Positions 36,776 to 63,590 of a stretch of 64,000 bases of DNA are shown piece after piece; positions within the stretch are counted from its first letter, which is position 1; each line of letters begins with the position of its first letter. Below the pieces are notes generated by a model that saw nothing but the letters and a program-made list of their open reading frames with translations, ran no database searches and had not been told where the DNA came from. The DNA comes from Paenibacillus sp. 32352 (GTDB lineage: Bacteria; Bacillota; Bacilli; Paenibacillales; NBRC-103111), in NCBI RefSeq assembly GCF_002042965.1, contig NZ_MZNT01000003.1, forward strand, positions 186,001 through 250,000, read 5' to 3'. A program made the position numbers and the translations under genes.

Positions 36776-36790
36776 TTAGGAGGGAACCCA

Positions 36791-39886: not shown

Positions 39887-39900
39887 GGGGAGAGGATAGG

Positions 39901-41217: not shown

Positions 41218-41247
41218 GGAATGCTAAAAAAGGAGGTTTTTCTCAAT

Positions 41248-44906: not shown

Positions 44907-44948
44907 TGCAATCGAACTTAGAGCATCCATGTGAAAGGGCAGGATACG

Positions 44949-46163
44949 ATGGGCATACTCACTCGCTGTATTACGGCAATAAGCGGCTTCGTTATGGTTC
45001 TGCTGCTTACCGGCTGCTGGGACCGGGTCGAAGTGAATGACTTGACGCTGGTTATGGCCGCAGGGCTGGATAAAAAAGGTGATAAAATATCGCTTTCCGT
45101 CCAGGTATTCGTTCCTCAGCCTTCCGGCGGTGGGGGTGGTGGCGGTGGGGGTGGAGGAGGCGAATCCGGCAAGGGAACGAGCGGCGCTACCGCCCAGACT
45201 ATCGTCAGAGCGGCGGAGGGAGTGACGCTGGCGGATGCCATGTCCAAGCTGCAGGAGGGATTCCCGCGCCGTATTTTTTGGGGGCATTGTGAAATATTTA
45301 TTTTTGGCGAGGAGCTTGCCAAGGACGGGTTTAGAGACAACATCGATTTTATTATGAGGGAGTCCGGTCCGCGGGAGAGAGCGGATGTCTTCGTCAGCAA
45401 AGGCGATGCCAAAAGTATTTTGCGGTTAATCCCTCCCATTGAACGGAGCTCCGCCGAGGTGCTTCGGGAGATGGCCAAGCTTCAAACCGGAATGAAGGTA
45501 ACCGTGAAGGATTTTGCCGAGATGCTGAACGGAGATGCGGGCGCAGCCGCATTGCCTTGGGTTGAGTCTCTTCCGCCCGAGGCTGGTAAAGAGTCCCAAA
45601 ATACGGTAGGCTTTATCAACGGAACGGCTATTATCAGGGGGGATAAAATGGTCGGCCGCTTGAACGATAAGCTGACGCGGGGACTTTTATGGCTGAGAAA
45701 TGAGGTTGAATCCTCCATCGTGACGATAGAACCTAAGGAGTCCGCGGGGCACGTCTCCATGAAGCTTCTGCGCAGCAGCACCAATCTGGTTCCTCACATT
45801 GAGGGAGATCAGTGGAGCGTAACGGTTATAATCAAGACGGAGGACGATGTGATCCAGAATACGACGAATCTGGATTTAAGTGATCCGGTTGTGACCAAGA
45901 AATTGGAGAAGGAGCTGGCTGAGGATATTGAGGAGCGAATCAAATCGGCTCTGGTACGGCCGCAAAAACAGCTGAATGCGGATATTTTTAACTTTGCCGA
46001 AGCCTTTCGACGCAAGTATCCGAAGGAATGGCATCAGGTCAAGGACCGGTGGGGTGAAGTATTCCCGTCAGTTAAAGTAAACATCGAGGCTTCCGCCAAA
46101 ATCCTCCGGACCGGAATGGCGACGATAGATTCCAAGAAACAAAATAAAGAGGTGAAGCAATAA
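44949..46163 (+). CDS. Spore germination lipoprotein, GerC family (C subunit)
   Basis: 404 residues from ATG 44949; a GTG at 44931 would add six. The lipobox is LLTGC followed by WDRVEVND, the standard GerC start. VMAAGLDKKGDKISLSVQVFVP is the first domain. A run of about 12 glycines then interrupts it (codons at 45127-45162), an unusual insertion. FWGHCEIFIFGEELAKDG and the C-terminal IKSALVRPQKQLNADIFNFAE fit the family. It is a lipid-anchored part of the germinant receptor. It overlaps the following small gene by 1 nt. Confidence 0.88.
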   Translation: MGILTRCITAISGFVMVLLLTGCWDRVEVNDLTLVMAAGLDKKGDKISLSVQVFVPQPSGGGGGGGGGGGGESGKGTSGATAQTIVRAAEGVTLADAMSKLQEGFPRRIFWGHCEIFIFGEELAKDGFRDNIDFIMRESGPRERADVFVSKGDAKSILRLIPPIERSSAEVLREMAKLQTGMKVTVKDFAEMLNGDAGAAALPWVESLPPEAGKESQNTVGFINGTAIIRGDKMVGRLNDKLTRGLLWLRNEVESSIVTIEPKESAGHVSMKLLRSSTNLVPHIEGDQWSVTVIIKTEDDVIQNTTNLDLSDPVVTKKLEKELAEDIEERIKSALVRPQKQLNADIFNFAEAFRRKYPKEWHQVKDRWGEVFPSVKVNIEASAKILRTGMATIDSKKQNKEVKQ

Positions 46164-46706: not shown

Positions 46707-48644
46707 CTATGTCCCAAAGCTAAGATTTTTCATTTCCTCAGGACGCATTGCCTTCAATTGCTTCTCATACAGGTCGCGGTACAGCCCGCCTTGCTGAAGC
46801 AGCTGCTGATGCGTGCCGCTCTCCACGATTTCTCCCTGATCAAAGACGAGAATTTGATCCGCTCTTACTACAGTGGCTAACCGGTGGGCGATGATGAAGG
46901 TGGTTCGGTCCTTCATTAAATGCTCCAGCGCTTCGGTCACAAGCGCCTCGGATTCCGCGTCCAGCGCAGAGGTTGCCTCATCCAATATCAAAATGCGAGG
47001 ATTTTTGAGCAACGCCCGTGCAATGGCGATACGCTGCTTTTGACCGCCCGACAGACGAACCCCCCGTTCTCCGACAACCGTATCATAGCCAAGCTCCATA
47101 TCGCTGATAAAGCCGTGGGCATTTGCCGCGCGGGCCGCTTGAATAACCTGCTTTTTGTCTGCCTTCGGGTTGCCGTAGGCAATGTTATCGAAGATAGTTC
47201 CGGAGAACAGCATATTATCCTGCAGCACGATAGCGATATGTTTACGCACATCATATACGTCGTAGTCTTTAAGGTCGACGCCGTCCAAATATACGGTGCC
47301 TTCATCCGGATCATAGAACCGGGGAATGAGATTGATCAAGGTCGATTTTCCGGCTCCGCTAGGCCCTACGAGAGCGATGACTTCGCCCGGACGGGCGGTA
47401 AAGCTGATATGCTGTAAGGCAATGCGCTGCTCGGTCACCATGGGAGGCGGGTCAGGCCTTGTTTTTGGCGGAATAATATAAAACTTTTTGGGCGGCTCCG
47501 CCATATCCACGAGATCCGGGTCCGATGATTTACCGGGCTCTTTTTTTATGTCCGGACGCTCGGTAACGTAGGTGAAGGAAACATTTTTGAATACGATGCC
47601 GCCCTTACAATGCTTGAGAGGGACCGGGTTTTCTTTTACTTTGATTTCCGGCTCAATATCGAACACCTCGAAGATGCGCTCGATGTTGCTCATGGAATTT
47701 TGTATCGTGACATTGGCTTCGGCGAACCGCTGGATAGGACCGTACAGCTGGCTCAAATAGGCTTGAAACGCGATAAGCGATCCTATGGATAATTGCCCCT
47801 TCAACACGAGCAGGCCGCCGGTGAACCAGATAATGATGCCTCCCGTTTGGGTAAACGTCTGGCTGAGCCGTCCTAACGAATTTCCGAGGAGCTGCGCTTT
47901 GTTGGCGTGCGAAATATGATTTTTGGCCTGCTTTTCAAACCGCTCCATCTCCGTTTGTTCCTGATTGAACGATTGAACGACCTTCATACCGGAGATTTTT
48001 TCGACCAGAACCCCGTTAATACGCTCCATCTGTCTATGGACAGAGCGCCAGGAGAGACGTATCCGGACATTGAGATTGGTGAAGGTCAAATAATAGAGCG
48101 GCAGCAGCCACAAGGACAATAAAGCAAGCTTCCAATGCAGGCTGAACAGCATAAAGCCAGCAAACAAGACGAGGAACATATCGATGATCAGATTGATAAC
48201 GCCGCCGTTGACCAGGTTTTGCGCTCCGTTGACGTCATTCATAATTCTCGAGACGATACTGCCGACCTGCCTGTTATCATAAAAGCGCTGCGACAGCTTC
48301 TGCATATGTTCATACAGCTGGTGACGAATATCATAAACCATCCGGTTACCAAGCCGGAAGGTGATCGTATTTCGCAAAAAATTGATCCAAATGCCGAACG
48401 CATACACGATGGCCAGAAAAGTCACGGCATTGGTCAAATTCCAGAAGCCTTCCTTTTGGGGAAGCACGTCGTCAATCAATATTTTGGTCATCCAAGGGCC
48501 GATCATCGGCACGGCAAATTGAAAAATACCGAGGACCAATATGAGCAAGAGGGTGAGACGGTAAGGCTTTAAGAAGGTTAAATACCGTTGAACAAGCTTC
48601 TTTTTTTCAGCGGACTGATTTGGATTTTGATCGGACGCATTCAT
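46707..48644 (-). CDS. ABC exporter half-transporter (MsbA/LmrA type)
   Basis: 645 residues: a six-helix exporter domain (about 30-330) and an ATPase domain (about 350-620). Walker A is GPSGAGKST, the signature LSGGQKQRIAIAR and Walker B ILILDEATSALD. Just after the A-loop region (VSFTYVTERP) there is a Pro/Lys/Asp-rich insertion of about 45 residues before QHISFTARPGE, where most relatives have only about ten. A site (gggagg) precedes ATG 48644. It should act as a homodimer or with another half-transporter for lipids or drugs. It is divergent from the eight-gene locus. Confidence 0.9.
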   Translation of the reverse strand: MNASDQNPNQSAEKKKLVQRYLTFLKPYRLTLLLILVLGIFQFAVPMIGPWMTKILIDDVLPQKEGFWNLTNAVTFLAIVYAFGIWINFLRNTITFRLGNRMVYDIRHQLYEHMQKLSQRFYDNRQVGSIVSRIMNDVNGAQNLVNGGVINLIIDMFLVLFAGFMLFSLHWKLALLSLWLLPLYYLTFTNLNVRIRLSWRSVHRQMERINGVLVEKISGMKVVQSFNQEQTEMERFEKQAKNHISHANKAQLLGNSLGRLSQTFTQTGGIIIWFTGGLLVLKGQLSIGSLIAFQAYLSQLYGPIQRFAEANVTIQNSMSNIERIFEVFDIEPEIKVKENPVPLKHCKGGIVFKNVSFTYVTERPDIKKEPGKSSDPDLVDMAEPPKKFYIIPPKTRPDPPPMVTEQRIALQHISFTARPGEVIALVGPSGAGKSTLINLIPRFYDPDEGTVYLDGVDLKDYDVYDVRKHIAIVLQDNMLFSGTIFDNIAYGNPKADKKQVIQAARAANAHGFISDMELGYDTVVGERGVRLSGGQKQRIAIARALLKNPRILILDEATSALDAESEALVTEALEHLMKDRTTFIIAHRLATVVRADQILVFDQGEIVESGTHQQLLQQGGLYRDLYEKQLKAMRPEEMKNLSFGT

Positions 48645-48823
48645 GCCAATCCTCCCTGCTTCTGTCGTAAATTTCCAACAAATTAGACATTAACATAGTC
48701 GGAATGAAATAAAAATGAATGATTCCTTCAATAAACATGGACTATTTTGCTCTGTGGAGCGGCTCTCTCTTCTATTAAAAAAGAATCCGCCAGGAGACAA
48801 AAAGTTCCTCCTCTAACTAATTA

Positions 48824-48856
48824 TTCACACCATCTTCACACGGAATTCATTACAAT
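48824..48856 (+). promoter_or_regulatory. Pho-box-like repeats at the promoter of the msmX-led locus
   Basis: TTCACA (48824-48829), TTCACA (48835-48840) and TTCATT (48846-48851) repeat at exact 11-bp intervals. TACAAT (48851-48856) follows as -10, with no good -35. TTHACA-type repeats 11 bp apart are the pattern bound by PhoP-like OmpR-family regulators. An OmpR-type regulator is encoded just beyond the locus (61505). The rest of 48645-48897 shows nothing else recognisable. Confidence 0.55.
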
Positions 48857-48897
48857 AGTTTCTAAGATTAAGTAAATTTGCACGTGGAGGCGGTAAT

Positions 48898-50019
48898 ATG
48901 GCGAGAATTCTGATCAATCATCTCTATAAGCGATACGGTAAGGACAAACAACCGGTCGTGAAGGATTTCCATCTGGAAATCAAGGATAAAGAGTTTCTGG
49001 TCTTCGTAGGTCCATCCGGGTGCGGGAAGTCGACCACGCTCAGGATGATTGCCGGCTTGGAGGATATCTCCGAAGGAGAAATCTATATCGGCGATACATT
49101 GGTTAACGATCTGCCGCCGAAGGACAGGGATATTGCTATGGTGTTCCAGAACTATGCGCTGTATCCGAACATGAGCGTTTACGAGAATATCGCATTCGGT
49201 CTTCGTCTGCGCAAGCTGCCTAAGCATGAAATCGATTTGGCCGTTAAGCGTGCGGCCCGGGTACTCGAAATCGAGCAGTACTTGAACCGTAAGCCGAGAC
49301 AGCTGTCCGGCGGACAGCGGCAGAGGGTTGCTCTCGGACGCGCCATCGTACGGAATCCGCAAGTGTTCTTGATGGATGAGCCTCTGTCCAACCTTGACGC
49401 CAAGCTTCGCGTACAGATGAGAACAGAGATTATCAAGCTTCACAAATCGCTGGGCGTAACGATGATTTATGTAACGCACGATCAGATCGAAGCGATGACT
49501 ATGGGTGACCGAATCGTGGTTATGAAATCGGGGATCATCCAGCAGGTGGATACGCCGGAGGTCATTTATACGAATCCTGCCAATACGTTCGTCGCCAGCT
49601 TTATCGGATCGCCTCCAATGAATTTTATTGACGGCCGCATTCAAGAGAATGCTCAAGGCAAGCTGGAGTTTCATACTCAGCGCTTCTCATTGGCTATTCC
49701 AGAAGGGAAAGCGCATTCATTAATCAAGAACAAGCAGGTCAACAAAGTGGTTACCCTTGGCATCAGGCCGGAGAATATCAGCTTGGAGGAAATGGTGTTT
49801 CAGGCTTATCCTAACGCGATCATTCCGGGCATTCATAAGCTTAGCGAATTGATGGGTGCGGACAGATTCCTTCATCTCGATATCGGGCAGGAACGGATGC
49901 TTATCGTAAGGGTTAACCCGCGCTATCACTATGACGAGGAAGATAAGATCCAGGTAGCGGTCGATATGTCGAAAGCGCTGTTCTTCTACAGTGAGACCGG
50001 CGATCGGATCATGGATTAA
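48898..50019 (+). CDS. msmX: Sugar ABC transporter ATPase (MsmX/UgpC type)
   Basis: 373-residue cytoplasmic ATPase of CUT1 sugar importers. Walker A is GPSGCGKST, the signature [14 protein letters not shown], Walker [15 protein letters not shown] and the H-loop [14 protein letters not shown]. The C-terminal ~130 residues form the OB-like regulatory domain ([21 protein letters not shown]). MsmX-type proteins often serve several transporters. This is the only CUT1 ATPase in the window, where eight permeases occur. It leads the eight-gene locus, 30 nt before the giant binding protein. The start has GTGGAGGCGG upstream. Confidence 0.9.
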
Positions 50020-50049
50020 TATACGGCGTAAGGGAAAGGAGTGACTGAA

Positions 50050-53043
50050 TTGCAAGCTGTAAAATGGAAACGCATACGAAATCGCTTTGTTGCTGTGCTG
50101 CTGATCGGGTCGTTGGGCTTGACTTGTACGGCGTTCCCGATTTTGCCGCAGCAAACGGCGCGGGCGGCCGATACGGCTGCCAAACCGGATGCGGCTAAGC
50201 CGGCCCAGCAGGGGAACCAGCAGCGTCAAGCCATCAAGGCGAACGAGTTCGAGCCTTATTATGCCAACATCTTAAAGGGCTGGAAAGATAAAGGGATCAA
50301 GGATGGGGCGGCTCCTATCGAGATCAACGCAAGCAAAACTTCCAAAAAGTCGGATGAATCGGTAGCGACGGTAGGAAGCTATGAAGGCAAAAGCAACGTG
50401 CTTCTATGGAACAGTCCAAAGGAAAGCTGGATCGAATATCAGGTGGATGTGCCTAACGATGGCCTGTATGAGCTTCACGTATCCTATCGTCCCTTCACGG
50501 GCAACGGCCTTCGCAGGCCGATCAGCTGGGATGTAAAGCTCGACGGAGCACATCCGTTCCGTGAAGCTTCTTCCATTACCTTGTACCGGGAGTGGAAGGA
50601 TGCCCGTCCAATCAAGAAGGATATTGACGGCAACGACATCCGGCCCAAATCGGAGGATATTTCCGGATGGTCCGTGAAACCGTTGAGGGATGCGGGTGGC
50701 GCATACTCCGAACCGCTGCAATGGTACTTCAGTAAAGGGTCGCATACGATCCGCCTGCAGGGCTTCGAGCCGATCGCTCTGGAATCAATCAAGCTGGTTC
50801 CGCAAACCAAGCTGAAATCGTACAAGGATGTCAGCACAGCCTATCCGCAAGCCAAGCCGGTTCAAGCGGAGGCGGTAACGATGCAGGCCGAGGACGTGAA
50901 ATCGAAGAACGATTCGGCGATTCAGTTGGTGTCCGATACGGATCAAAGATCGGTTCCGCTGGCTAAAGGCAAAATTACGTTTAACAGCATCGGCGGGAAA
51001 AAGTGGTATGACCAGAACCAGGAAATCACATGGACTCTTGATGTTCCTGAATCGGGGAAATATAAGCTCGGCATGCGCGCTTTGCAAAACACCATCTCGC
51101 AAAAGGCTTCCTTTAGACGTATTGCCATTGACGGCAAGGTTCCGTTCGAGGAAATGCTCGCTTATCGCTTCTCCTACGATACAGGCTGGAAAGGGGTTAC
51201 CTTATCCGACGATGAAGGAAAGCCGTACGAGTTTTACCTGGAAAAAGGGACGCATACGTTGACGATGTCCGTGACGCATGCACCGTTCAAGCCGGTCATC
51301 ATCGGTATTGAGGAAATTACGGATATTTTACAGGGAATCGACCAGGATCTGAAGTCGCTGACAGGAGGTCAGGACGACAAGAACCGGACCTGGAAAATCG
51401 CTCAGGATATGCCCGATCTGCCGAAGCGCTTGACGGTTGTCGTCGACTTGCTGAAGAAGCTGTCCGAACAGATGCAGCAAGTAAACGGGCGCAAAGACAA
51501 TGTCAGCGAGAGCATGAACACCTCCATCAAGGATATTGAGGAGCTTCTGACCAAAGTCGATGATATCCCGTATCACAGAGATACGATCAGCACGACGAAT
51601 GAAAAAATAAGCAAGTTCATCGAAACGCTGGTCCAACAGCCGCTTCAGCTCGATGAAGTGTATTTTGCGCCGGTAGAGAAGAGCTTTCCATCGATGGAAG
51701 CATCCTTCTTCACAAAGATGAAGGGGATGGTAGTCAACTTCTTCTATTCGTTCCAAACGAAAAACAGATTGAGCGATATCGACGATAACGTACTGAACGT
51801 ATGGGTGCAACGCGGTCGCGACTACGTGACCCAGCTGCAGGAGCTATCGGACGAGACGTTCACACCGGAAACCGGCATTCAGGTCAAAGTCAACCTGCTT
51901 CCGAATGCTCAGCTGCTCGTCTTGGCGAATGCGGCAGGCATCCAGCCGGATATCGCACTGGGCTTAACGCAGGACCTGCCGGTTGATTACGCGATTCGGA
52001 ACAGTATTTATGATATCTCGCAATTCCCGGACTTCAAGGATCTTTACAAAAACTATAGCCCGGGTTCATGGCTGCCTTTCTACTATAATAAAGGCTACTA
52101 TGCGGTGCCGGAAACACAATCCTTCCATGTGCTGTACTACCGCAAAGATATTTTGAGCCGTCTCGGCTTGTCAATACCGAACACATGGAACGACGTGTAC
52201 GATATGCTGCCGACGCTGCAGCAAAACTATATGAACTTCTATATGCCGCCTACGGAATACATGACGTTCGTATACCAGAACAATGCGGAGTTTTTTGATA
52301 AAGAGGGCTCCAAAACCGCGTTGGACAGACCGGAAGGCTTCAAAGCCTTCAAGCAGTGGACCGACTTGTTCAATATTTACGCGATGGACCGTTCTGTAAC
52401 CAGCTTCCTGCAGCACTTCCGCAAAGGCGACATGCCGATCGGATTTGCAGATTATAACATGTACATTCAATTGTCCGCAGCGGCTCCTGAATTGAATGGA
52501 GCTTGGGGGATCGCCCAAATTCCGGGTACCCAGCAGCCGGATGGATCCATTTCCCGCTGGTCGGGCGGCGGTCAGACGGCCGGTGTCATTTTCAACAAAT
52601 CGAAAAAGAAAGACCAAGCGTGGAAATTTATGAAGTGGTGGGCATCCGCCGATACCCAAGAACGTTACGGCTCCGATTTGGAAGCCTTTAACGGAGTAGC
52701 CTTCCGCTGGAATACAGCTAATGTCGAGGCCTTCTCCAAGCTTCCTTGGAAGAGGGAGGATGCCAACGTCATCCTGGAGCAGTGGAGATGGTACAAGGAT
52801 ATGCCGAACCTGCCGGGCGGATATTTCGTAGGTCGTGAAATCAATAATGCATGGAACCGGGCCGTTGTAGACGGAACGAATTACCGAAGCTCTCTCGAAA
52901 CGACCGTAATGGACATTAACCGGGAGCTGAGGCGTAAGCAGCAGGAATTCGGTTTTATCGACGAGAACGGCAATGTCATTCGAACGATGGATCTGCCGGT
53001 TGTCGATAAGCCTTGGGATGGGGTGAATCCGTATGTTAAGTAA
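50050..53043 (+). CDS. Giant multidomain solute-binding protein (~1000 residues)
   Basis: 997 residues from TTG 50050 with AAAGGAG nine bases upstream; GTG 50041 overlaps that site. The signal peptide ends near ARA-AD, and no lipobox is present. Two similar beta-sandwich domains follow, about 90-260 ([20 protein letters not shown]) and 275-420 ([20 protein letters not shown]), resembling CBM6/35-type modules. A helical, probably coiled-coil, region covers about 430-560. The last ~400 residues are a family 1 binding protein ([34 protein letters not shown]). Ordinary sugar-binding proteins have 420-560 residues. It overlaps the first permease by 11 nt. Confidence 0.83.
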
Positions 53044-54010
53044 CCAAGCAAGCCTATCAACGAAAACGGCCGCTCCGGTCAAACTGACATGGACGGATAA
53101 GATGAAGGCTCTTCTGTCCGAGATGTGGGAGTACCGCTTGTCATACTTGTTTATTGCACCGTTTATGCTCTGCTTTCTCGCCTTTATCGTCATACCGGTA
53201 GTGGCGGCGATTGCTCTAAGCTTTACTTACTTTAATGCTATCGAGCCTCCGCGTTTTATCGGCTGGACGAACTTTCAGAACTTAATATCCCAGGACTTGA
53301 CGTTCCTGAAGTATGCTCTCCCGAACACGTTCAAGTTCGCTATTATCGTTGGACCCGGCGGCTATATTCTTGCCTTCCTGCTGGCCTGGCTCATTACGCA
53401 GCTGCCTGCGGGATTGCGCAAATGGTTCGCCCTTGCGATGTACACTCCTTCATTGACGATGGGGATTGCGATGTCCATCGTATGGCTGCCGCTTCTATCC
53501 GGCGACCGTTTGGGTTACTTGAACAGTTTATTGCTGCAAATCGGGTTTATCGATGAGCCTATCTTGTGGGTTACCGATAAAGCTTACCTGATGAATTCCA
53601 TGATCGTGGTTACCTTATGGTCCAGTATGGGTGTAGGCTTCTTGGCCATGATGGCCGGTATTCTGAACGTCAACCCGGAATTATATGAAGCTGGTCGTAT
53701 AGACGGCATGAGCAGCAGACTCCAGGAAATCTGGTACATTACCATTCCTTCCATGAAACCGCAAATGCTGTTCGGAGCGGTCATGGCTATCGTAACCACC
53801 TTTAAGGCCGGAGCGATAGGTGTGGAGCTGTCGGGACAAACACCGACTCCGCAGTATGCGGGACATTTGATCATTAATCATATCGATGATTATGGATTTA
53901 TTCGATTTGAAATGGGTTATGCCGCTGCGATTTCCGTATTCCTGCTGATTCTGATGTATTTGTCGAATAAACTTAGTATGGGATTGTTCGGCTCTAAGGA
54001 GGATGAATAA
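53033..54010 (+). CDS. Sugar ABC permease, first pair (MalF type)
   Basis: 325 residues, ATG 53033 inside the end of the binding-protein gene. Six membrane segments start with [20 protein letters not shown]. The EAA loop reads [20 protein letters not shown] followed by [11 protein letters not shown] long N-terminal cytoplasmic part (~40 residues) precedes the first segment. It is coupled to the next permease by a shared TAATG. Confidence 0.86.
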
Positions 54011-54912
54011 TGCAAAACGCAGCCGTTTGGTGGAAGAAGGTGGTTCCATGGAGAAAGAAATCCAAGCTGCACTCCATGGACACGTTTCAAAAAGTACTTG
54101 TATTTCTGCTCGTAGTGTTCTCGATTTTCATGCTGCTTCCGCTCATCTACATCTTTAACCATGCGCTGAAGCCGTATCAGGAGCTGTTCATATATCCGCC
54201 GAATATCTTTGTTCGGGAGCCGTCTTTCCAGAACTTCGTCGAGCTGTTCCTGGTAGCCTCCAGTTCGACAGTGCCGGTTACACGTTATTTGTTTAACAGC
54301 CTTGTGATTTCGGGCGGAGCCGTCGTGTGCGTGACCATTGTCAGCGCATTGTGCGCATACCCGATCTCCAAGCACAAGTTTCCGGGTCATAAAGCGGTAT
54401 TCGCTACGATCATTCTAACGCTGATGTTCGCACCGGAAGCCGTGCAGATTCCGCGGTATCTGGTAGCCAGCAATCTCGGCATTATGAACTCGTACTGGGG
54501 GCATATCCTGCCTATTCTGGCGATGCCTGTCGGGGTTTTCCTGCTCAAGCAGTTTATTGATCAGCTGCCGAATGAGCTGCTCGAGGCGGCCAGAATTGAC
54601 GGAGCAACCGAGATTCATATTTTCTTGAAAATCGTCATTCCGATTTGTATGCCTGCGGTGGCGACGGTTGCGATTCTGACGTTCCAAAGCTCCTGGGGCA
54701 ATACAGAGACTTCAACGCTTTTCATGCAGGATGACGAAATGAAGAACTTCCCGTTCTTCCTGTCCACGTTAACCAATAACCTGGCCAACAACGTTGCGAG
54801 ACAAGGCGCGGCAGCAGCCGCAGCCATGGTTATGTTCATACCGAACCTGATCATCTTCCTGATATTCCAAGGTAAAGTTATCGCTACGATGGCTCATTCC
54901 GGGATCAAATAA
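54010..54912 (+). CDS. Sugar ABC permease, first pair (MalG type)
   Basis: 300 residues. The first membrane segment is VLVFLLVVFSIFMLLPLIYIFN and the EAA loop ELLEAARIDGATEIHIFL followed by KIVIPICMPAV. It ends GKVIATMAHSGIK, a MalG-like tail. It starts in the stop codon of the previous gene, and the NHL/Yip1 gene follows 20 nt later with GGAGGAAG. Confidence 0.86.
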   Translation: MQNAAVWWKKVVPWRKKSKLHSMDTFQKVLVFLLVVFSIFMLLPLIYIFNHALKPYQELFIYPPNIFVREPSFQNFVELFLVASSSTVPVTRYLFNSLVISGGAVVCVTIVSALCAYPISKHKFPGHKAVFATIILTLMFAPEAVQIPRYLVASNLGIMNSYWGHILPILAMPVGVFLLKQFIDQLPNELLEAARIDGATEIHIFLKIVIPICMPAVATVAILTFQSSWGNTETSTLFMQDDEMKNFPFFLSTLTNNLANNVARQGAAAAAAMVMFIPNLIIFLIFQGKVIATMAHSGIK

Positions 54913-54932
54913 TAGAGAAAGGAGGAAGAACC

Positions 54933-57080
54933 ATGTTAGTCAAAACACGATGGCGCCGGCCGCTGTTCCTTCTTCTGGCCTTCACCCTGTTCGCCTCGGT
55001 CATGATGCCTATGACCGCGTTTGCCTGGGTGCCTTACGATACGAACTATAAGGACGGATTCGGCCAGCTGGTCTGGACCCAATCGGCCTATACACCGGTT
55101 GAAGTGCTGGGCAGGGAAATTTATGTTCCGGATCCCAAGGATCCTGCCAAGCAGGTATTTTCCCCGCTTGTACAGCCCAAAGGGATCTTTATCGATACCA
55201 AGGACAACATCTATATCGCCGATACGGGAAATAACCGGATCGTGCATCTGGATGAGAACGGGAACTTTAAGCGGATTATCGATGTGAAGGAAAACCCGCT
55301 CAAGAAGCCCGAAGGCGTATTTATCGATAAAAACGGAGATATTTACGTTGCTGACACAGGCAACAAACGCGTTTTGCGGTTGGATAGCAACGGCAAGATG
55401 ATCCGCGAATTCAAGCGTCCGGATTCGAAGTTTTTGCCTGAATCGTTCAAATACGATCCGATCAAGGTTGCCGTCGATAAGCGCGGTTTCCTGTATATCG
55501 CTACATTGGGCGGCTACCAGGGCTTGCTGCAGCTGGACCCGGAAGGCAATTTCCAAAGCTTCTTCGGAGCTAACAAAACAGAGTTTTCCGTTATGGACGC
55601 ATTGAAACGGATGCTGTACACCCGTGAAATGTATTTGCGGGAAATCAGTAAGCTGCCAGGCTCTGTCAGCAGCGTAACGATCGACCAGAACGGCTTTATT
55701 TATACGGTTACGAAAGAAGTGACGAACGGTCAGATCAAGAAGCTGAATATCGCGGGCAAAGATTTGCTGGCAACGAAGAACGACACGTCGGCTACCGGGG
55801 ACGCAGTCAAAACGTTCGGGGAAGTTCGTTTTCCGAGCAGAGATAAGCTGACGCCGAAGCTGAATGACTTGACGGTTGACCGTAACGGTAACATTACGGC
55901 CATCGATTCCACGTTAAAATACGTCAACCAATATGATGCGAACGGAAATCTGTTGTTTTTCTGGTCGGGAGACACCACCGCTTCTTCCTCCAAGCTTGGA
56001 GTCGTCAAGACGCCATCGGCCATTGCCTCCAACTCGAAGAACCATCTGTATATTCTGGATGAGGAAAACAACGTCGTGCAGGTGTTCCGCTTGTCGGAAT
56101 TCGGTGAACTGGTTCATAAAGCGAACCAATTGACGCAGGAAGGCCGTTATGAGGAAAGCGAGAAGCCTTGGCAGGAAGTACTGCGCCTTAACGCCTACTA
56201 TACTCCGGCGATGCTGGGCCTTGCCAAAGCGGCCTATAAGAAAGGCGACTTTGAGCGCGCTGAGAAATTGTTCTACGATGCAGGGCAAATTCAAGGCTAC
56301 TCGGATTCGTTCTGGCAAATCCGGCTCATGTGGTTCCAAAGAAACTTCGGTCTGTTAATGAACATCGTCATTATTTTCGGAGTAGGGTACTTGCTGTTTG
56401 AACGTCTTACGCGCAAGAGTGGGTTCCGTAAAAAATGGCGGAACCGCCAAAGAACGAAGATTCCTTTGCTCGTTCAGTTGAAGCATTCATTTTATATCCT
56501 GAAGCATCCGATCGACGGCTTCAGCGCGATTCGTTACGAAGGCAAAGGAGGATTCGCGAGCAGCACCATCATGCTGCTGCTGGCGCTGGTATCGTTCTGT
56601 ATTTACAGAGCATTTACCAACTTCACGTTTAATCCGTCCGTAGTATTGGAAATTAATCTGATTACGGTGTTCATCCAATTTATGGTGTTATGGGTAGGCT
56701 GGATCGTATCCAACTACTTGATAAGCACGATCTATCGCGGTGAAGGCCGGTTCCGGGACGTTGCCTTCGGCAGCACGTATGCTTTGTTCCCGATTGCTCT
56801 GGTTGGATTGCCATTAACCTTGCTTTCCAATGTTATGACATTAAGCGAAAGCGCGATTTATTCCTTCTTGCAGATTGCTATGATGATATGGGTCGGTCTG
56901 CTGATGTTCTGGAAAGTACAATCCATGCAAAACTACAGCGTGGGTGAAACGGTTATGAACATTTTCCTATCGCTCGTAACCATGACGATTCTCGGTGTCT
57001 TGATCTTCATCACATTCGGATTAAGCAGTGAAATGAAAGACTTCTTCTATTCGATCTATCAGGAGGTGACGATCCGATGA
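54933..57080 (+). CDS. NHL-propeller, TPR and Yip1-domain membrane protein
   Basis: 715 residues. A signal/anchor segment (LFLLLAFTLFASVMMPMTAFA) is followed by an extracytoplasmic propeller of NHL-type repeats (GIFIDTKDNIYIADTGNNRI, GVFIDKNGDIYVADTGNKRV, IDQNGFIYTV). Residues about 395-450 look like TPR helices (ANQLTQEGRYEESEKPWQEVL, AKAAYKKGDFERAEKLFYDA). A membrane segment (LLMNIVIIFGVGYLLF) and a C-terminal multi-helix Yip1-like domain with KHPIDGFSAIRYEGKG complete it. The architecture suggests a sensor or scaffold that holds the unanchored binding protein near the permeases; that is inference. It overlaps the next gene by 4 nt. Confidence 0.8.
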   Translation: MLVKTRWRRPLFLLLAFTLFASVMMPMTAFAWVPYDTNYKDGFGQLVWTQSAYTPVEVLGREIYVPDPKDPAKQVFSPLVQPKGIFIDTKDNIYIADTGNNRIVHLDENGNFKRIIDVKENPLKKPEGVFIDKNGDIYVADTGNKRVLRLDSNGKMIREFKRPDSKFLPESFKYDPIKVAVDKRGFLYIATLGGYQGLLQLDPEGNFQSFFGANKTEFSVMDALKRMLYTREMYLREISKLPGSVSSVTIDQNGFIYTVTKEVTNGQIKKLNIAGKDLLATKNDTSATGDAVKTFGEVRFPSRDKLTPKLNDLTVDRNGNITAIDSTLKYVNQYDANGNLLFFWSGDTTASSSKLGVVKTPSAIASNSKNHLYILDEENNVVQVFRLSEFGELVHKANQLTQEGRYEESEKPWQEVLRLNAYYTPAMLGLAKAAYKKGDFERAEKLFYDAGQIQGYSDSFWQIRLMWFQRNFGLLMNIVIIFGVGYLLFERLTRKSGFRKKWRNRQRTKIPLLVQLKHSFYILKHPIDGFSAIRYEGKGGFASSTIMLLLALVSFCIYRAFTNFTFNPSVVLEINLITVFIQFMVLWVGWIVSNYLISTIYRGEGRFRDVAFGSTYALFPIALVGLPLTLLSNVMTLSESAIYSFLQIAMMIWVGLLMFWKVQSMQNYSVGETVMNIFLSLVTMTILGVLIFITFGLSSEMKDFFYSIYQEVTIR

Positions 57081-59413
57081 GACGTAAACGTACAAAAGTA
57101 GTCCTCTCCGCGACACTGGCCGCTACGCTGAGCTTATCTCTATTTGCAACGCAGGCGGTCCAGACGATTAATGCGGCGGATCCACCGGCTGCCGGATCGG
57201 GGAACGCAGGGGACAATGCCGCCAAGCCTGATGCCAACGCGCAAGCTCCTGCGGCTAATACGGCTGCTCCAGCACAGGCGCCGGCAACGGCTCCGGTCGA
57301 TGTGAACAAAGTGAAGGCGGAGCTGCCGAACGACGCGAACTTCAAGCTCGCCGCACAAAGCGACAAGCTGAAGCTCCTCGTGGACAGCACGACCGGGCAC
57401 TTCCAGGTAGAAGATAAGCGAAATGGGGAAGTTTGGCGCTCCTATCCGAATGTGGATCTATGGCCTCAAGAAACAATTACAGGAACGTGGAGAAATAATC
57501 TCCGTTCTCCCATCATGGTTGAATATATCGATGCCGCGAACTTCAAGTCGCAGCCCAAAATGACCAGCCTTATCGAAGATAAAGGCGTGCTCGAAGGCTT
57601 CCAGACGACGGCGACAGGCTTCAAGGTCACGTTCAACTTCAAAACCTCCGGCTTTAAAATTCCGGTGGAAGTGAACATAAAGGATGATTACGTAGAGACC
57701 AAAATCATCGACAGCGGCATTGAGGAAGGCAAGCTCAGTCTCTTGAACCTGAAGCTGTACCCGATGTTCGGCGCGGAGCCTTCCGTCGGCCAAGACGGCT
57801 ACATGGTCGTTCCAGACGGTTCCGGTGCATTGATCCGTTTCAAAACGAAACAGATCAACGATAAATCGATTTATCGCGAGAATATGTATGGCAGCGATAT
57901 TTCATTTTATGCGGAAAGAACGGCCCGTCAGCAAGCGAAGATGCCTGTATACGGCATGAAATCCGGCGACAAGGCATTCGTAGCGATCATGACCGGTGGA
58001 GAAGAATACTCCAAAGTATTCGGTTCCCCCTCCGGCGCATTCGGCCAATCCAACTGGATCACGGCAGAATGGCAGTATCGGATCAAGTTTTTCCAAAATA
58101 CGAGCAAAAAAGGAAATGCGGGCTTCTTTACCTACAGTAAAGAAAGATTTACCTCCGATCAGCGCAGCACCCGTTATTACTTGCTCGATAAAACCAATGC
58201 GGACTATGTCGGCATGGCTTCCAAATACCGCGAATATTTAATGAAGGAACAAGGCGTTAAGCCGCTTCAGGCTGCGTCGAACAAGATTCCGATGTTCGTG
58301 GATATCGTTGGAGCAGACGTGAAAAAAGGGATGCTGTGGGATAAGTATTTGCTCGGAACCTCAACCTCTCAAGCGATGGAAATGGTGAAAAGGCTGTACG
58401 GTCTTGGCATTGAAAATATGTCCATTCAATATTTGGGCTGGCAGAAGGGCGGTTACAGCTCCTTCGGCGGATTGTTCCCGGTAGATAAGCGGCTGGGCGG
58501 CAACGAAGGCATGAAGCAGTTCATCCAATTCGCACATTCCTTGAAGGTGCCGGTCTACTTGACCGCTAACTACACCTATAACAATAACGAAAGAGACGGA
58601 TTCAATGCGAGATATGACGGGATGCGTAACCTTGCAGGCAAGCTGATGGATTTCGAAATGTTTGCAAGCCGGGATACGATTACCCAGATGAGTCCGAAGT
58701 TCTCGGCCCAGTCGCTCTCCAAGGACATGAGCCAGTTTAAGGAATTGGGTGCGGACGGCATTTATTTCGAAGACGGCATCGGCCGGTACTTGAACAGTGA
58801 TTTCAATACCCGTGCACCGTCTACGAGAACGGAAACGATGCATACGCAGCAGGAGATGCTAAAGGAGACGAAAGAGACGCTGGGCGGAGTAAGCGTAGAA
58901 AGAGCCAATATGTATACGCTGAAGGACATTAGCCATATTCACCGCATAGCGGATGACTATTCGTATGACCTGTTCATCGACGAATCCATTCCGTTCCTGC
59001 AAATCGCTCTGCATGGCCTTGTCACCTATTCTTCCGGCTGGTCTAATCTGCGGGATCAGTACAAGACCGAGATGCTTCGCAGTATCGAGTACGGCGCAAG
59101 CCCATCGTTCATTTTCACTTATGCGCCGTCTGAGGATATGAAAGGGGCTTACTCTGTTTATTACTACAGCATGAATGTCCATGACTGGGAATCGACCGCT
59201 GTAGAGGAATACCAGCGCTACAATAAAGCTTTGGGCGACGTACAGACCAAATTTATTGTCGGCCACAAAACCATCGCTCCGAACGTGAAGGAAGTTACCT
59301 ACGACGGAGGGAAGAAAGTGGTTATCAACTACAATTCAACACCGTATAGCGACGGCAAGGTAACGATACCGGCTCAAGACTTTATCGTAGTTCAAGGAGG
59401 CGCTGGCCAATGA
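57077..59413 (+). CDS. Secreted DUF5696-like, probable glycosidase-fold protein
   Basis: 778 residues. A signal peptide ends near INAAD, followed by an Ala/Pro/Asn-rich linker to about residue 75. Then comes a beta-sandwich-like region (GHFQVEDKRNGEVWRSYPN, GYMVVPDGSGALIRF) and, from about 390, what looks like a TIM barrel: YLGWQKGGYSSFGG, VPVYLTANYTYNNN, LGADGIYFEDGIGRYLNSDF and YDLFIDESIPFLQI. These resemble the catalytic strands of retaining glycosidases, with Asp/Glu in IYFEDG and FIDES as candidate catalytic residues. I recall the family as DUF5696 without known activity. It could trim the polysaccharide for import. It is coupled on both sides by 4-nt overlaps. Confidence 0.72.
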   Translation: MRRKRTKVVLSATLAATLSLSLFATQAVQTINAADPPAAGSGNAGDNAAKPDANAQAPAANTAAPAQAPATAPVDVNKVKAELPNDANFKLAAQSDKLKLLVDSTTGHFQVEDKRNGEVWRSYPNVDLWPQETITGTWRNNLRSPIMVEYIDAANFKSQPKMTSLIEDKGVLEGFQTTATGFKVTFNFKTSGFKIPVEVNIKDDYVETKIIDSGIEEGKLSLLNLKLYPMFGAEPSVGQDGYMVVPDGSGALIRFKTKQINDKSIYRENMYGSDISFYAERTARQQAKMPVYGMKSGDKAFVAIMTGGEEYSKVFGSPSGAFGQSNWITAEWQYRIKFFQNTSKKGNAGFFTYSKERFTSDQRSTRYYLLDKTNADYVGMASKYREYLMKEQGVKPLQAASNKIPMFVDIVGADVKKGMLWDKYLLGTSTSQAMEMVKRLYGLGIENMSIQYLGWQKGGYSSFGGLFPVDKRLGGNEGMKQFIQFAHSLKVPVYLTANYTYNNNERDGFNARYDGMRNLAGKLMDFEMFASRDTITQMSPKFSAQSLSKDMSQFKELGADGIYFEDGIGRYLNSDFNTRAPSTRTETMHTQQEMLKETKETLGGVSVERANMYTLKDISHIHRIADDYSYDLFIDESIPFLQIALHGLVTYSSGWSNLRDQYKTEMLRSIEYGASPSFIFTYAPSEDMKGAYSVYYYSMNVHDWESTAVEEYQRYNKALGDVQTKFIVGHKTIAPNVKEVTYDGGKKVVINYNSTPYSDGKVTIPAQDFIVVQGGAGQ

Positions 59414-60276
59414 ATCGCAAATTGAGATTGAGCTCCGCCACCCTACGTAAAGTGGAAGGTTCTTTATTCATCGCACCATGGGTTATCGGATTTCTGGGCT
59501 TTATCGCATTTCCACTGGTATATTCGTTCTATATGAGCTTTAACCGCGTTAAAATTACGGCCGGCGGCGTGGAGTATTCGCCGGTCGGCTTCCAGTACTA
59601 CCGCGAGATTTTGTTTGCGGATGGCGGCCTCTTGTACAATGACTTGCTGCCGTTTTTGCGTCAAGCGTTAATGATGATTCCGGTTATCGTGGTTTTCTCG
59701 CTGCTTGTAGCGATTTTGCTGAATCAGAAGTTTATCGGACGCTCGTTTTTCAGGGTCATTTTCTTCCTGCCTGTCATATTCTCCACCGGACAAATTATCC
59801 AGGAGTTTATTACGCAGGGGGAAGGAACGTTGTCCTTCGTTCAAGAGTTCGAGCTGGGCAGCTACATCAACACCTATTTGCCGAAAGCCTGGGCGGCTCC
59901 GCTTAACTCCATCATTAACTCGTTTGTTCTCATCCTATGGTATTCCGGTGTGCAAATCTTGATTTTCCTGGCGGGTCGTCAGACCATCTCGACCTCGGTA
60001 TATGAGGCAGCCCGGATTGATGGAGCCGACCCTTGGGAAACGTTCTGGAAAATTACGCTGCCTGGCTTGACACCATTTATTTTGCTGAACTTGATTTACA
60101 CGGTAGTCGATTTGTTCACGTTCCCGTCCAACCCGATCATTTCCAAGGTCAACACGACCAACTACGGTTTGTCTAGTGCTCTGGCATGGATTTACTTTAT
60201 GATCGTATTGCTCTTCCTGGGTATTGTCCTGCTCATCTTCTCCAGAGTGACCAAATCCTCAAGCGGAGCCAAATAG
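59410..60276 (+). CDS. Sugar ABC permease, second pair (MalF type)
   Basis: 288 residues, ATG overlapping the previous stop. The first membrane segment is LFIAPWVIGFLGFIAFPLVYSFYM, and the EAA loop is VYEAARIDGADPWETFW followed by KITLPGLTPFIL. The short N-terminus (~18 residues) distinguishes it from the first-pair MalF-type protein. That one operon has two permease pairs is unusual. Confidence 0.86.
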   Translation: MNRKLRLSSATLRKVEGSLFIAPWVIGFLGFIAFPLVYSFYMSFNRVKITAGGVEYSPVGFQYYREILFADGGLLYNDLLPFLRQALMMIPVIVVFSLLVAILLNQKFIGRSFFRVIFFLPVIFSTGQIIQEFITQGEGTLSFVQEFELGSYINTYLPKAWAAPLNSIINSFVLILWYSGVQILIFLAGRQTISTSVYEAARIDGADPWETFWKITLPGLTPFILLNLIYTVVDLFTFPSNPIISKVNTTNYGLSSALAWIYFMIVLLFLGIVLLIFSRVTKSSSGAK

Positions 60277-60293
60277 AAAGGAGGCGAGACGGA

Positions 60294-61262
60294 ATGCAAA
60301 AAGTAATAAAAGATATCAAGAACGTGCGCTTCGATTCTCATTCGGTCAGGTCATGGCTGACAGCGGCCAAAAACCTGCTGATAGGCAAGGAAGCCGATAA
60401 AGGCTTAATATTCAGGCTGTTCATGTACCTGATTTTGATTGACGTGGCCTTTATCTATGTGAAGCCGATCATTTATATGATCACGACCATGATTAAGGAC
60501 TCCGCCAACCTGCTGGATCCGGCCGTTATTTGGGTTCCGAGGTCCTTCTTTACAGGTCATCTGCAGGAAGCGTTCCGGCTGTTGAAATATTCCAACGCTT
60601 TCTTTATCAGTATGACGGTGTCGCTTAGCGTTGCGGTGCTGCAGGTCATTTCATGTGCTATTGCGGGATATGCCTTTGCCAGATTGGATTTTCCGCTTAA
60701 AAAATTCTGGTTCGTATGTCTCATCTTTACGTTCGTCATGCCGCCTCAGGTGACCATTTTGCCATCCATCCTGCTGTTCAAAGACTTCGGATGGATCAAT
60801 ACGTACCTGCCGCTCATTGTGCCTGCCATATTCGGGCATGGCTTGAAAGGCGCGCTCTTTGTCATCATTTACCGCCAGTTCTTCAGCACGCTTCCTAAGG
60901 AGCTTGAGGAGGCAGCCAAAATGGACGGAGCGAATGTATTCAGAGTGTTTTTCCGGGTTATGCTGCCGATCTCGACTTCGGCGATCATCGTCGTATTCTT
61001 GTTCTCCTTCGTTTGGAACTGGAACGATTTCTATTTCCCTACGATGTATATGTTCGGGGCAAAAGAGGTTCCGCTGTCCATCAGCTTGTCGCGTCTGGCT
61101 GCATCCTTAACAGCCGAAGCGGAGCAGGCCGGTCCAAGTATTTTTGCGGAGCCGATCAAGATGGCCGCATCGTTCTTGATCATTATGCCGGTCTTGGTAG
61201 TATACACGTTTACTCAGCGCTGGTTCGTAGAAGGCGTAGAGCGTACGGGCCTTGTAGAATAG
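60294..61262 (+). CDS. Sugar ABC permease, second pair (MalG type)
   Basis: 322 residues from ATG 60294 with AAAGGAGGCG upstream; a longer frame from 60186 has no site and runs inside the previous gene. The N-terminal cytoplasmic extension is about 40 residues. The EAA loop reads ELEEAAKMDGANVFRVFF followed by RVMLPISTSAI, and the tail is QRWFVEGVERTGLVE. It is the last gene of the locus, closed by the terminator at 61275. Confidence 0.86.
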   Translation: MQKVIKDIKNVRFDSHSVRSWLTAAKNLLIGKEADKGLIFRLFMYLILIDVAFIYVKPIIYMITTMIKDSANLLDPAVIWVPRSFFTGHLQEAFRLLKYSNAFFISMTVSLSVAVLQVISCAIAGYAFARLDFPLKKFWFVCLIFTFVMPPQVTILPSILLFKDFGWINTYLPLIVPAIFGHGLKGALFVIIYRQFFSTLPKELEEAAKMDGANVFRVFFRVMLPISTSAIIVVFLFSFVWNWNDFYFPTMYMFGAKEVPLSISLSRLAASLTAEAEQAGPSIFAEPIKMAASFLIIMPVLVVYTFTQRWFVEGVERTGLVE

Positions 61263-61274
61263 TAAGGAGTAGGA

Positions 61275-61301
61275 AGCCTGCTGCGAGCAGGCTTTTTTTT
61301 T
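61275..61301 (+). terminator. Intrinsic terminator of the eight-gene locus
   Basis: agcctgct (61275-61282) and agcaggct (61286-61293) form a perfect 8-bp stem with a 3-nt loop, then nine T. Confidence 0.9.
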
Positions 61302-61504: not shown

Positions 61505-62218
61505 ATGCATATATTACTTGTGGAGGACGAGCTCAAAATCCGCGAAGTAGTCACCGCATATTTGAAGAATGAAGGATGGGAAGTCGATTGCACGGCAAAC
61601 GGCTTGGAGGCTGTTCAATTGTTCGAGAACGGTTCTTATGATCTGGTTATTTTGGATCTTATGCTGGAAGGCCTGTCGGGAGAAGAGGTATGCCAGCAAA
61701 TCCGCGCCAAATCGGTCGTACCTATCATCATGCTGACTTCCAAGTCAAGGGAGAGCGACACGATTGCAGGATTAAATCTGGGCGCCGATGACTATATAGC
61801 GAAGCCTTTCCGGGTTAAAGAAGTCATTGCCCGCATTCATGCTCTTCGACGCCGCATTCATGCTTACAAAGCCGATGCCGTCAAGCAAAACGTATTGACC
61901 TTCGATAGAGGCCAGTTAGTCGTAGACTTGGAAGCGAACACCTTGCTGGTACGCGGCGTACATGCGAACTTGACGACGACGGAATTCAAGCTGTTAACGG
62001 TGTTTACGAGCAAGCCGGGCAAGATTTGGTCGCGCAGCGATCTTTCTTATCATGTGCTTGGCTATCGTTTTCAGGGAGACAGCCGATCTATCGATACCCA
62101 CGTCAAAAATTTGCGCAAAAAAATCGAGGAAGACACAAAGGAGCCCCGGTATATTCTTACCATGGTAGGCTCAGGCTATAAATTTGCCGCAGAATCGGAT
62201 ACGAAGGAAACAACTTGA
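61505..62218 (+). CDS. OmpR-family response regulator
   Basis: 237 residues. The receiver has EDE at 7-9, phospho-acceptor Asp51 (LVILDLMLEGLSG) and KPF near residue 100. The C-terminal winged helix shows ANLTTTEFKLLTVFTSKPGKIWSRSDL and DTHVKNLRKKIEED...RYILTMVGSGYKF. ATG 61505 follows AGGGGG. The kinase gene begins two bases after the stop. It is the closest candidate for binding the 11-bp repeats at 48824, but this is inferred from position and family only. Confidence 0.9.
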   Translation: MHILLVEDELKIREVVTAYLKNEGWEVDCTANGLEAVQLFENGSYDLVILDLMLEGLSGEEVCQQIRAKSVVPIIMLTSKSRESDTIAGLNLGADDYIAKPFRVKEVIARIHALRRRIHAYKADAVKQNVLTFDRGQLVVDLEANTLLVRGVHANLTTTEFKLLTVFTSKPGKIWSRSDLSYHVLGYRFQGDSRSIDTHVKNLRKKIEEDTKEPRYILTMVGSGYKFAAESDTKETT

Positions 62219-62219
62219 G

Positions 62220-63590
62220 ATGATTAAAGTATTTCGCAAAATGGAAGTGATCTTGTTTTTAACGCTTCAAAGCTGCTTCATCTTGATTATATCGGTGGTT
62301 GCTTACGGCTATAATTTTAATTGGCAGGATGTCTTCACGCACTATCAGGAGGATCAATTAAAAGTAAACGCTTTCAAATTAATAGACGATATGCGCAACG
62401 ATAACTTGTCGGTGGGGCCATACACGGAGGAGCAGAAGTCTTGGCTGGACCGGAGGGCCACATTATACGGCATTCTCGTCCGTTACGGAGAGGATAAGCA
62501 TACGGTCTGGTTTGATATGTTCTCGCGTGTACAAAACCAAAAGGACCTTATCATCCAGGAGTATCCGGTGGTAGCCAAGGGAGAGACCCGCGGCATTTTG
62601 CAGGTAGGATATTTAAAGACATTGAATCAGATCGATCCGAATGTCATCGCCTATCAAAAAATGATGGAAACCCGTTCCGGAATCTTGTATGGTGTCATTA
62701 TCCTGATCTCCGTTCTGGTCAGCTTTGTCGTTGCCCGTCTGCTGTCCGCGCATTTGCAAAGACTGCAGGAAACGGCGAATAAAATCCGTCTGGGCAACTG
62801 GGAGGTACAGGCGGCCGTCAAAGGCCCGGAGGAGGTCCGGAGGCTTGCTTTAACGTTAAACGAGCTCTCCAGGGAGCTGAAGAAGCAGGAGGATTGGCGC
62901 CATCATCTTATGGAGGATTTGACCCACGAGCTTCGAACGCCGCTGACATCCATGCTCTCCCAGCTGGAAGCGATGATTGACGGGATCTATGAAGTGGATC
63001 TGGAATGGCTGGAGCAAATCTATGACGAGCTGATCCGGCTTACCCGCCTGATGAATGATATGGAACGCTTATCCGAGGCGGAGGCCGCCCGGTTTACGAT
63101 AAATATTCGGCGAATTAATATCGTACAGCTGACCCAGAACGTCTACCGCAATTTTCAGCAGATGGCCAAGAGCAAAGGGGTCAAGCTGCAATTTGTCCCT
63201 ACCAATGCTCCTTGCTATGCCGAAATCGACCGCGATAAAATGATACAGGTCATTTCGAATATTGTATCCAATGCGATTAAGTATACGGACGAAGGCGGAA
63301 AGGTCACGCTTGGGGTTGATTGGACGATCGATTCTACTATTATCTATTGTGAGGATACGGGCATTGGAATCAGCGAGGCGGATTTGCCTTATGTATTTAA
63401 CCGGCTGTACAGGGTCGATAAGTCCAGATCCCGCTTTAGCGGAGGGGTCGGTCTTGGCTTAAGTATCGTTAAAGCGTTAGTAGAGGCTCACGAGGGTAAG
63501 ATTGAGGTGACAAGCACCTTGGGACAAGGCTCCAAATTTATGGTTACCATCCCGAATGTGTACAAGTCGCTGGAGCAGCAATTATCATAA
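62220..63590 (+). CDS. Membrane sensor histidine kinase paired with the OmpR-type regulator
   Basis: 456 residues from ATG 62220 with GAAGGAA upstream. Two membrane segments (FLTLQSCFILIISVVAYGY and GVIILISVLVSFVVARLL) enclose an extracytoplasmic domain of about 125 residues. HAMP (RLQETANKIRLGNWEVQAAV), HisKA (MEDLTHELRTPLTSMLSQL) and HATPase (ISNIVSNAIKYTDEGG, GIGISEADLPYVFNRLYR, GGVGLGLSIVKAL) follow in order. The sensor domain shows no motif I recognise. Confidence 0.9.
   Translation: MIKVFRKMEVILFLTLQSCFILIISVVAYGYNFNWQDVFTHYQEDQLKVNAFKLIDDMRNDNLSVGPYTEEQKSWLDRRATLYGILVRYGEDKHTVWFDMFSRVQNQKDLIIQEYPVVAKGETRGILQVGYLKTLNQIDPNVIAYQKMMETRSGILYGVIILISVLVSFVVARLLSAHLQRLQETANKIRLGNWEVQAAVKGPEEVRRLALTLNELSRELKKQEDWRHHLMEDLTHELRTPLTSMLSQLEAMIDGIYEVDLEWLEQIYDELIRLTRLMNDMERLSEAEAARFTINIRRINIVQLTQNVYRNFQQMAKSKGVKLQFVPTNAPCYAEIDRDKMIQVISNIVSNAIKYTDEGGKVTLGVDWTIDSTIIYCEDTGIGISEADLPYVFNRLYRVDKSRSRFSGGVGLGLSIVKALVEAHEGKIEVTSTLGQGSKFMVTIPNVYKSLEQQLS

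Follow-up and report, generated by a model that had tools for sequence, protein, structure and literature searches.

A conserved eight-gene locus of Paenibacillus with two CUT1-type permease pairs and a DUF5696/NHL-Yip1 core: a candidate pathway for the uptake of polysaccharide fragments

Results

Architecture of the locus

We analyzed a 64,000-nucleotide stretch of DNA from Paenibacillus sp. 32352 (hereafter called the window), in which the ORF listing places eight open reading frames at 48898-61262, all on the + strand. The features of the locus, including those before and after the eight genes, are as follows.

48824..48856, + strand: predicted regulator site and promoter, TTCACACCATC-TTCACACGGAA-TTCATTACAAT (two half sites exact, the third a near-match; TACAAT at 48851-48856)
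48898..50019, + strand: MalK/UgpC-type ATPase (Pfam and UgpC subfamily model)
50041..53043, + strand: giant binding protein, 1000 aa, GTG start (Pfam, profile comparison, hydrophobicity)
53033..54010, + strand: permease A (BPD_transp_1, coupling loop)
54010..54912, + strand: permease B (BPD_transp_1, coupling loop)
54933..57080, + strand: NHL propeller-TPR-Yip1 membrane protein, 715 aa (Pfam; Yip1 score just below the cut-off)
57077..59413, + strand: DUF5696 protein, exported, with a predicted GH129/GH101 fold (Pfam and fold prediction)
59410..60276, + strand: permease C (BPD_transp_1, coupling loop)
60294..61262, + strand: permease D (BPD_transp_1, coupling loop; frame open from 60186)
61271..61297, + strand: terminator-like hairpin and T run (hairpin scan, 12 pairs)
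61505..62218, + strand: OmpR-family response regulator (Pfam/subfamily model, co-occurrence with the box)
62184..63590, + strand: sensor histidine kinase, predicted partner of the regulator (co-occurrence with the box)

The eight same-strand genes and the duplicated permease pair described in the initial annotation are both present, a Pfam scan of the operon having confirmed the ATPase, the SBP_bac_1 protein, the four BPD_transp_1 permeases and the NHL part; the same scan found no classical glycosidase or CAZyme gene in the operon. From the ATPase to permease D the genes are spaced by 21, -11, -1, 20, -4, -4 and 17 nt, the last value holding when permease D starts at 60294; its ORF is listed as 60186-61262, but the start at 60294, which gives the 322-aa form of the relatives L038 and L039, is likelier. 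Six of these seven gaps agree with the earlier figures, while the first had been put at 30 nt, which implies a start other than the GTG used here. A single promoter region and a single terminator had also been proposed. A terminator-like hairpin lies at 61271-61297, and a conserved repeat with TACAAT starts at 48824, although a sigma-70 scan gave no + strand match in 48645-48897. The hairpin is the longest terminator-like one of the whole scan, whose terminator-like sites in total (19, against a mean of 16.5 in shuffles) are not above chance, and no Rfam family reached its gathering score within 40000-64000.

Elsewhere in the window we observed an AcrB-type RND pump (1067 aa), its HlyD-type partner and a 612-aa protein that matches nothing in Pfam at E 1e-6 (36683-43059), in a Paenibacillus-like genome, and the spore germination genes GerA and GerAC (43341-46163), upstream of a divergent MsbA-like exporter (46707-48644).

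Conservation and linkage of the gene set

The core of the gene set is conserved far beyond Paenibacillaceae, from Paenibacillus to Caldicellulosiruptor-like genomes. Eight named Paenibacillus loci were retrieved by means of the NHL-Yip1 protein, and all of them have these eight genes in an unchanged order. DUF5696 scores above the cut-off in 67 of the 104 family genomes and in 39 of the 398 sampled over the phylum, and some of the phylum matches belong with Caldicellulosiruptor, the DUF5696 protein of L135 being 72% identical to a C. bescii protein. The genome of the strain itself has two further DUF5696 loci. One of them, L033, carries all eight genes in the same order; in the other, L034, the core is split into halves ~23 kb apart, the order being ATPase, SBP, permeases A and B (L147, L103), ~23 kb of same-strand genes including GH95, GH2, GH42 and GH106-like ones, and then NHL-Yip1, DUF5696 and permeases C and D. 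L147, L103 and L034 thus form one same-strand run of ~35 kb (contig C22, ~275-311 kb) in which the core halves flank many glycosidase genes.

We then examined the surroundings, up to 22 kb, of 107 loci, consisting of 65 of the 112 non-own full DUF5696 matches listed for the family, 40 of the 55 non-own strong matches listed for the phylum and the two own paralogues; they were chosen mostly from the better-scoring DUF5696 matches, and the window's own locus stands outside the 107. Two loci were repeated, so the tables hold 109 rows. L068 and L070, which duplicate L037 and L039, were dropped from the coupling-loop, second-SBP, box, distance and acid-residue counts, and L035 and L103, which lack DUF5696, were left out of the linkage count.

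Permeases C and D adjoin DUF5696 on its strand in all 109 rows (107/107 distinct loci), and the NHL and Yip1 parts lie on that strand in 108 rows (106/107 loci), the sole miss, L075, ending at a contig edge. The SBP and permeases A/B fall inside the same 20-kb stretch in 85 rows (83/107 loci); one of the 24 rows in which they are not all inside it is L034, whose A/B half lies ~23 kb upstream. A dedicated ATPase was found in 38 of the 109 rows of relatives. The linkage also holds in reverse: 122 of the 125 NHL-Yip matches listed lie within 3 kb of a same-strand DUF5696, and 110 of the 115 full DUF5696 matches listed have an NHL match no more than 3 kb away. The exceptions that we read turned out to carry the complete set (L149, L150, L153) or to be cut by contig ends (L151, L152); the exceptions also include two fragments in G007. 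The partners are the same and the gene order mostly so over the 107 loci, which come from many families of the phylum sample, and the pairwise distances of the eight parts correlate with each other (r 0.91-0.97, 83 loci). Scattering of the genes in relatives had been named beforehand as the observation that would speak against a single system; in the loci read the parts sit together. On the strict linkage in both directions, the followed exceptions and the correlated distances, we reject chance clustering.

Two irregularities were seen along the way. In one genome of the Caldicellulosiruptor-like group, a 442-aa antisense ORF inside permease B (L129, 4584-5912) splits the gene and looks like an inserted element, and in G023 and G079 (L076) many DUF5696, NHL-Yip1 and glycosidase genes are fragmented, reflecting gene decay or assembly error.

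The giant binding protein and the NHL-TPR-Yip1 protein

The giant binding protein has its SBP_bac_1 domain (PF01547) at residues 598-874, and PF01547 is found in 33 of 33 giant binding proteins of relatives. By profile comparison, the nearest solved chain to this domain is the sugar-binding Lin1841 (E 2.2e-32), for which our literature search found no mention. At a permissive E of 0.1, Golvesin_C matches the N-terminal half in 20 of the 33 relatives and CBM_35 matches it in 8 (best 2.8e-5 and 6.7e-7, respectively), the Golvesin_C match of the window copy being weak (E 0.012), and profile positions 443-508 resemble designed coiled coils, suggesting a coiled-coil-like linker. The protein had been called unanchored; it does lack a lipobox, as most relatives seem to (a lipobox-like motif occurs in 6 of 87 rows), but it retains one hydrophobic N-terminal stretch at 15-36. 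It may thus be either cleaved and secreted or anchored by its signal.

The Yip1 part of the 715-aa protein scored 27.3 bits in the window copy against a Pfam cut-off of 28.6; the precomputed domains of the window protein, and of nearly all homologues listed, include PF04893. NHL and Yip1 are encoded in one ORF in 73 loci and in two ORFs in 33, so the window shows the fused version of a unit that elsewhere can consist of two genes. The protein is likely to dock exported components at the membrane; the role of scaffold or gate suggested in the initial annotation gained no support here.

The DUF5696 protein is more likely to bind or present sugar than to cut it as GH129 enzymes do

The DUF5696 protein is a full member of its family (PF18952, 632.6 bits against a cut-off of 25.6). 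Its predicted fold is a beta-sandwich plus a TIM barrel as in NagBb (GH129/GH101), at 16% identity to the GH129/GH101 structures (NagBb 5wzn, DagB 5opq, EngBF 2zxq), and a scan at E 0.001 returned PF18952 only, with no match to the GH129 family PF11308. Five residues, D247, D274, D575, R584 and E671, are nearly invariant. At the expected end of the nucleophile strand, a position set by spacing and strand end and not by superposition, D or E occurs in 30 of 108 proteins at residue 565 and in 50 of 108 at residue 566, and 40 of 108 have neither anywhere in 562-567. The nucleophile expected there is an Asp (Asp435 of NagBb, equated with Asp486 of DagB in an excerpt of PMC5698469), and an acid at the expected position is not conserved in the DUF5696 family. 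The trimming of glycan that the initial annotation proposed is therefore doubtful, and on the predicted fold it is more likely that DUF5696 binds or presents sugar than that it cuts by the GH129 mechanism.

We nevertheless give real, if lesser, weight to the possibility that DUF5696 represents a new family of active exo-glycosidases, trimming the glycan before import with acids other than those of GH129. The predicted fold and the five nearly invariant residues would suit such an enzyme, and DagB, a GH129-like protein that shares the fold, already departs from NagBb at one of the two catalytic residues (excerpt of PMC5698469); the low acid counts at 565 and 566, and the 40 proteins without any acid in 562-567, argue against it. 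A search for GH129 proteins in 199 phylum genomes gave no match, and as its controls were silent too it says nothing on absence. In the control genomes of Thermotoga maritima and Lactococcus lactis the DUF5696 model gave sub-cut-off matches, possibly to related barrels. No paper with DUF5696 or PF18952 was found in the literature searched.

A predicted promoter box that tracks a two-component system

A direct repeat with 11-bp spacing begins exactly at 48824, where the initial annotation had set the start of the locus, and runs into TACAAT (48851-48856), which would be the -10 element. Such an arrangement is expected of a promoter under an OmpR/PhoB-type regulator. When the upstream regions of the window and seven relatives were aligned, an invariant TTCACACNATCTTCACA block was found. 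The pattern TTCACA-N5-TTCACA has three exact sites in the 7.93-Mb genome, and the reversed-pattern control has none. Among the 79 of 84 loci that could be judged, the others having fewer than 130 upstream bases, the exact box precedes 11 of the 11 loci with the response regulator/kinase pair and 1 of the 68 without it. This single locus, L041 (P. filicis), turned out to have the pair as well, ~11 kb past permease D, and its kinase is 67% identical. L054 and L116, where the pair is absent, have one-mismatch copies of the box upstream. Five genomes were searched for the kinase as negatives, and in the two of them whose locus is shown to lack the box, G095 (L062) and G046 (L058), the best-identity matches were 38% and 37%. 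Since the exact box tracks the pair across loci, the pair at 61505-63590 is likely to be the regulator of the operon; neither this two-component system nor its box figured in the earlier account.

A cre (CcpA) site before the operon was considered and rejected: the window has 34 against 30.4 expected, none of them in 48645-48897. Beside the pair, downstream of the kinase, L036-L039 have a 187-aa protein and genes resembling those for GlpP, GlpD and GlpK of glycerol metabolism.

Neighbouring genes and the likely substrate

The neighbours in the conserved runs include GH2, 5, 10, 26, 29, 30, 31, 32, 35, 38, 42 and 43, pectate lyase, alginate lyase, chondroitinase B and others, and also one RuBisCO-like protein; this survey covered 51 of 119 cluster representatives, favoring long proteins, and 25 of 79 families listed, so that it gives occurrence and not frequency. 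Transporter and CAZyme genes stand together in relatives such as L034 and L128. Because a constant core is joined to varying polysaccharide-degrading sets, uptake of polysaccharide fragments is the best explanation, and we infer, direction and substrate alike, that the core likely imports such fragments. The glycan-import role proposed earlier thus gains from the relatives, whose copies lie among polysaccharide-degrading enzymes, but not from the window operon, which has no such enzyme.

The nutrient role is in fact less clear in the window than in the relatives, since the operon has no classical glycosidase gene and is accompanied by an OmpR-type regulator. The main rival for the window lineage is envelope housekeeping, where the system would recover or sense the cell's own surface glycan and not food. 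The response regulator/kinase pair with its matching box, together with the lack of a glycosidase gene in the operon, would fit this role, but paralogues and relatives of the core stand in runs of GH2, GH42, GH95, GH43, lyases and others, and we regard it as unlikely.

Two further observations concern the surroundings. A small exported protein family is repeated several times after permease D (L034, 13797-16052; ~ten loci, the GH42/GH106 subgroup); three L034 copies have no Pfam match, and the sequence is, we presume, S-layer-like. The window itself holds a cache-domain histidine kinase with an AraC-type response regulator (5886-9249) and a rhamnogalacturonan lyase (RGL11, 22402-24627), which together make up a separate pectin-related cluster.

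Two permease pairs as two probable pores

Sugar importers are usually pictured as one permease pair with one binding protein. For a CUT1 system one pair per locus is expected, whereas the window has two. All four permease families retain the EAA-type ATPase-coupling loop, in permease A as EAG, and the ATPase has PF00005, PF17912 and PF08402 (the OB/TOBE regulatory part) and scores above the UgpC subfamily model cut-off. The single binding protein stated in the initial annotation holds at the window locus but not for the family: in 61 of 107 loci an ordinary second SBP directly adjoins the conserved run, and 27 of 74 second-SBP genes directly follow permease D (the second SBP was defined as a sequence cluster, of which two members, in L033 and L128, were checked and both have PF01547). 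It is absent from the window and from most of its nearest relatives. For the loci without an ATPase gene, a shared ATPase is likely by analogy with A. bescii, in which all CUT1 transporters are powered by MsmK (excerpt of PMC12096829).

The second contiguous SBP and the coupling loops in all four permeases fit two working pores better than one pore and a spare, and from these features two pores in one pathway are likelier than the single glycan machine that had been proposed. In that arrangement the four permeases, the giant binding protein, DUF5696 and NHL-Yip1 would be one complex moving a single large glycan. It would account well for the fact that all parts are strictly linked and diverge in step and for the one SBP and one ATPase of the window locus, but we think it improbable, because a second SBP is so often contiguous, each pair alone resembles a complete CUT1 pair with coupling loops, and the halves of the strain's own paralogue lie ~23 kb apart.

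Discussion

On balance, and with modest confidence, we favor the reading that the two CUT1-type permease pairs encoded in 48824-61297 serve a single pathway that takes up polysaccharide fragments and has a predicted two-component switch. The downstream response regulator and kinase would switch the operon on. The giant binding protein, at or near the membrane, would grip glycan chains with its CBM-like modules and load permeases A/B. A second pore would consist of permeases C/D; in many relatives the ordinary binding protein encoded alongside would load it, whereas the binding protein that does so in this strain is presumably encoded elsewhere. Both pores would draw their power from the operon's own MalK-type ATPase, or from a shared MsmK-like one in those relatives that have none. 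DUF5696, with its glycosidase-like predicted fold, would bind or present sugar rather than cut it as GH129 enzymes do, and the NHL-TPR-Yip1 protein would hold the exported parts at the membrane. It is extremely improbable that the parts are neighbors without a common function, brought together by chance or lineage-wide operon drift, since CUT1 genes are indeed frequent in these genomes (an extra SBP and pair lie near L041, for example) but the partners are constant, the order is mostly constant in loci of many families and the divergence is correlated.

The proposed pathway shares with CUT1 importers such as MalEFGK and UgpABCE the MalK-type ATPase, the SBP_bac_1 protein and heterodimeric BPD_transp_1 permeases with coupling loops, and differs from them in its two permease pairs, its 1000-aa binding protein with CBM-like modules and its obligate NHL-Yip1 and DUF5696 module. 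The sharing of an ATPase where none is encoded, as is likely in relatives here, is known from the MsmK-driven transporters of Anaerocellum bescii (excerpt of PMC12096829). Like Gram-positive polysaccharide utilization loci, it has a transporter beside CAZymes in many relatives, and beside a regulator in the window; unlike them, it has a fixed core of NHL-Yip1, DUF5696 and the second pair, and the window copy lacks a classical CAZyme.

In the SusCD systems of Bacteroidota, surface capture is coupled to import and the enzyme sets are exchangeable. The likeness to our locus is by analogy only, as the set here includes no TonB-dependent porin and has ABC pores instead. We can suggest, quite tentatively, that the locus is a phylum-wide Gram-positive counterpart of SusCD, in which a pseudo-glycosidase DUF5696, a gripping giant binding protein and a propeller-TPR-Yip1 dock would feed two cooperating ABC pores on one polysaccharide, the enzyme set being swapped from locus to locus to change the diet.

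The statement in the initial annotation that no characterised system has this set agrees with our literature searches, which found no description in titles and abstracts. Literature mentions of Athe_0082 to 0084 were not found either, and an excerpt of a curation of C. bescii (PMC8579813) lists Athe_0085-87 as a putative oligosaccharide transporter without an assigned substrate. Caldicellulosiruptor is used in plant biomass breakdown and has a strain in which deletions were made, according to an excerpt of PMC12096829.

Beyond the usual picture of one permease pair and one binding protein, a larger core, composed of DUF5696, NHL, Yip1 and a permease pair, is kept together in the loci read. The analysis points to the kind of function that DUF5696 may have, gives a bacterial Yip1 protein a possible place, and names a specific candidate regulator along with its DNA site; the substrate and the role of the system thereby become testable.
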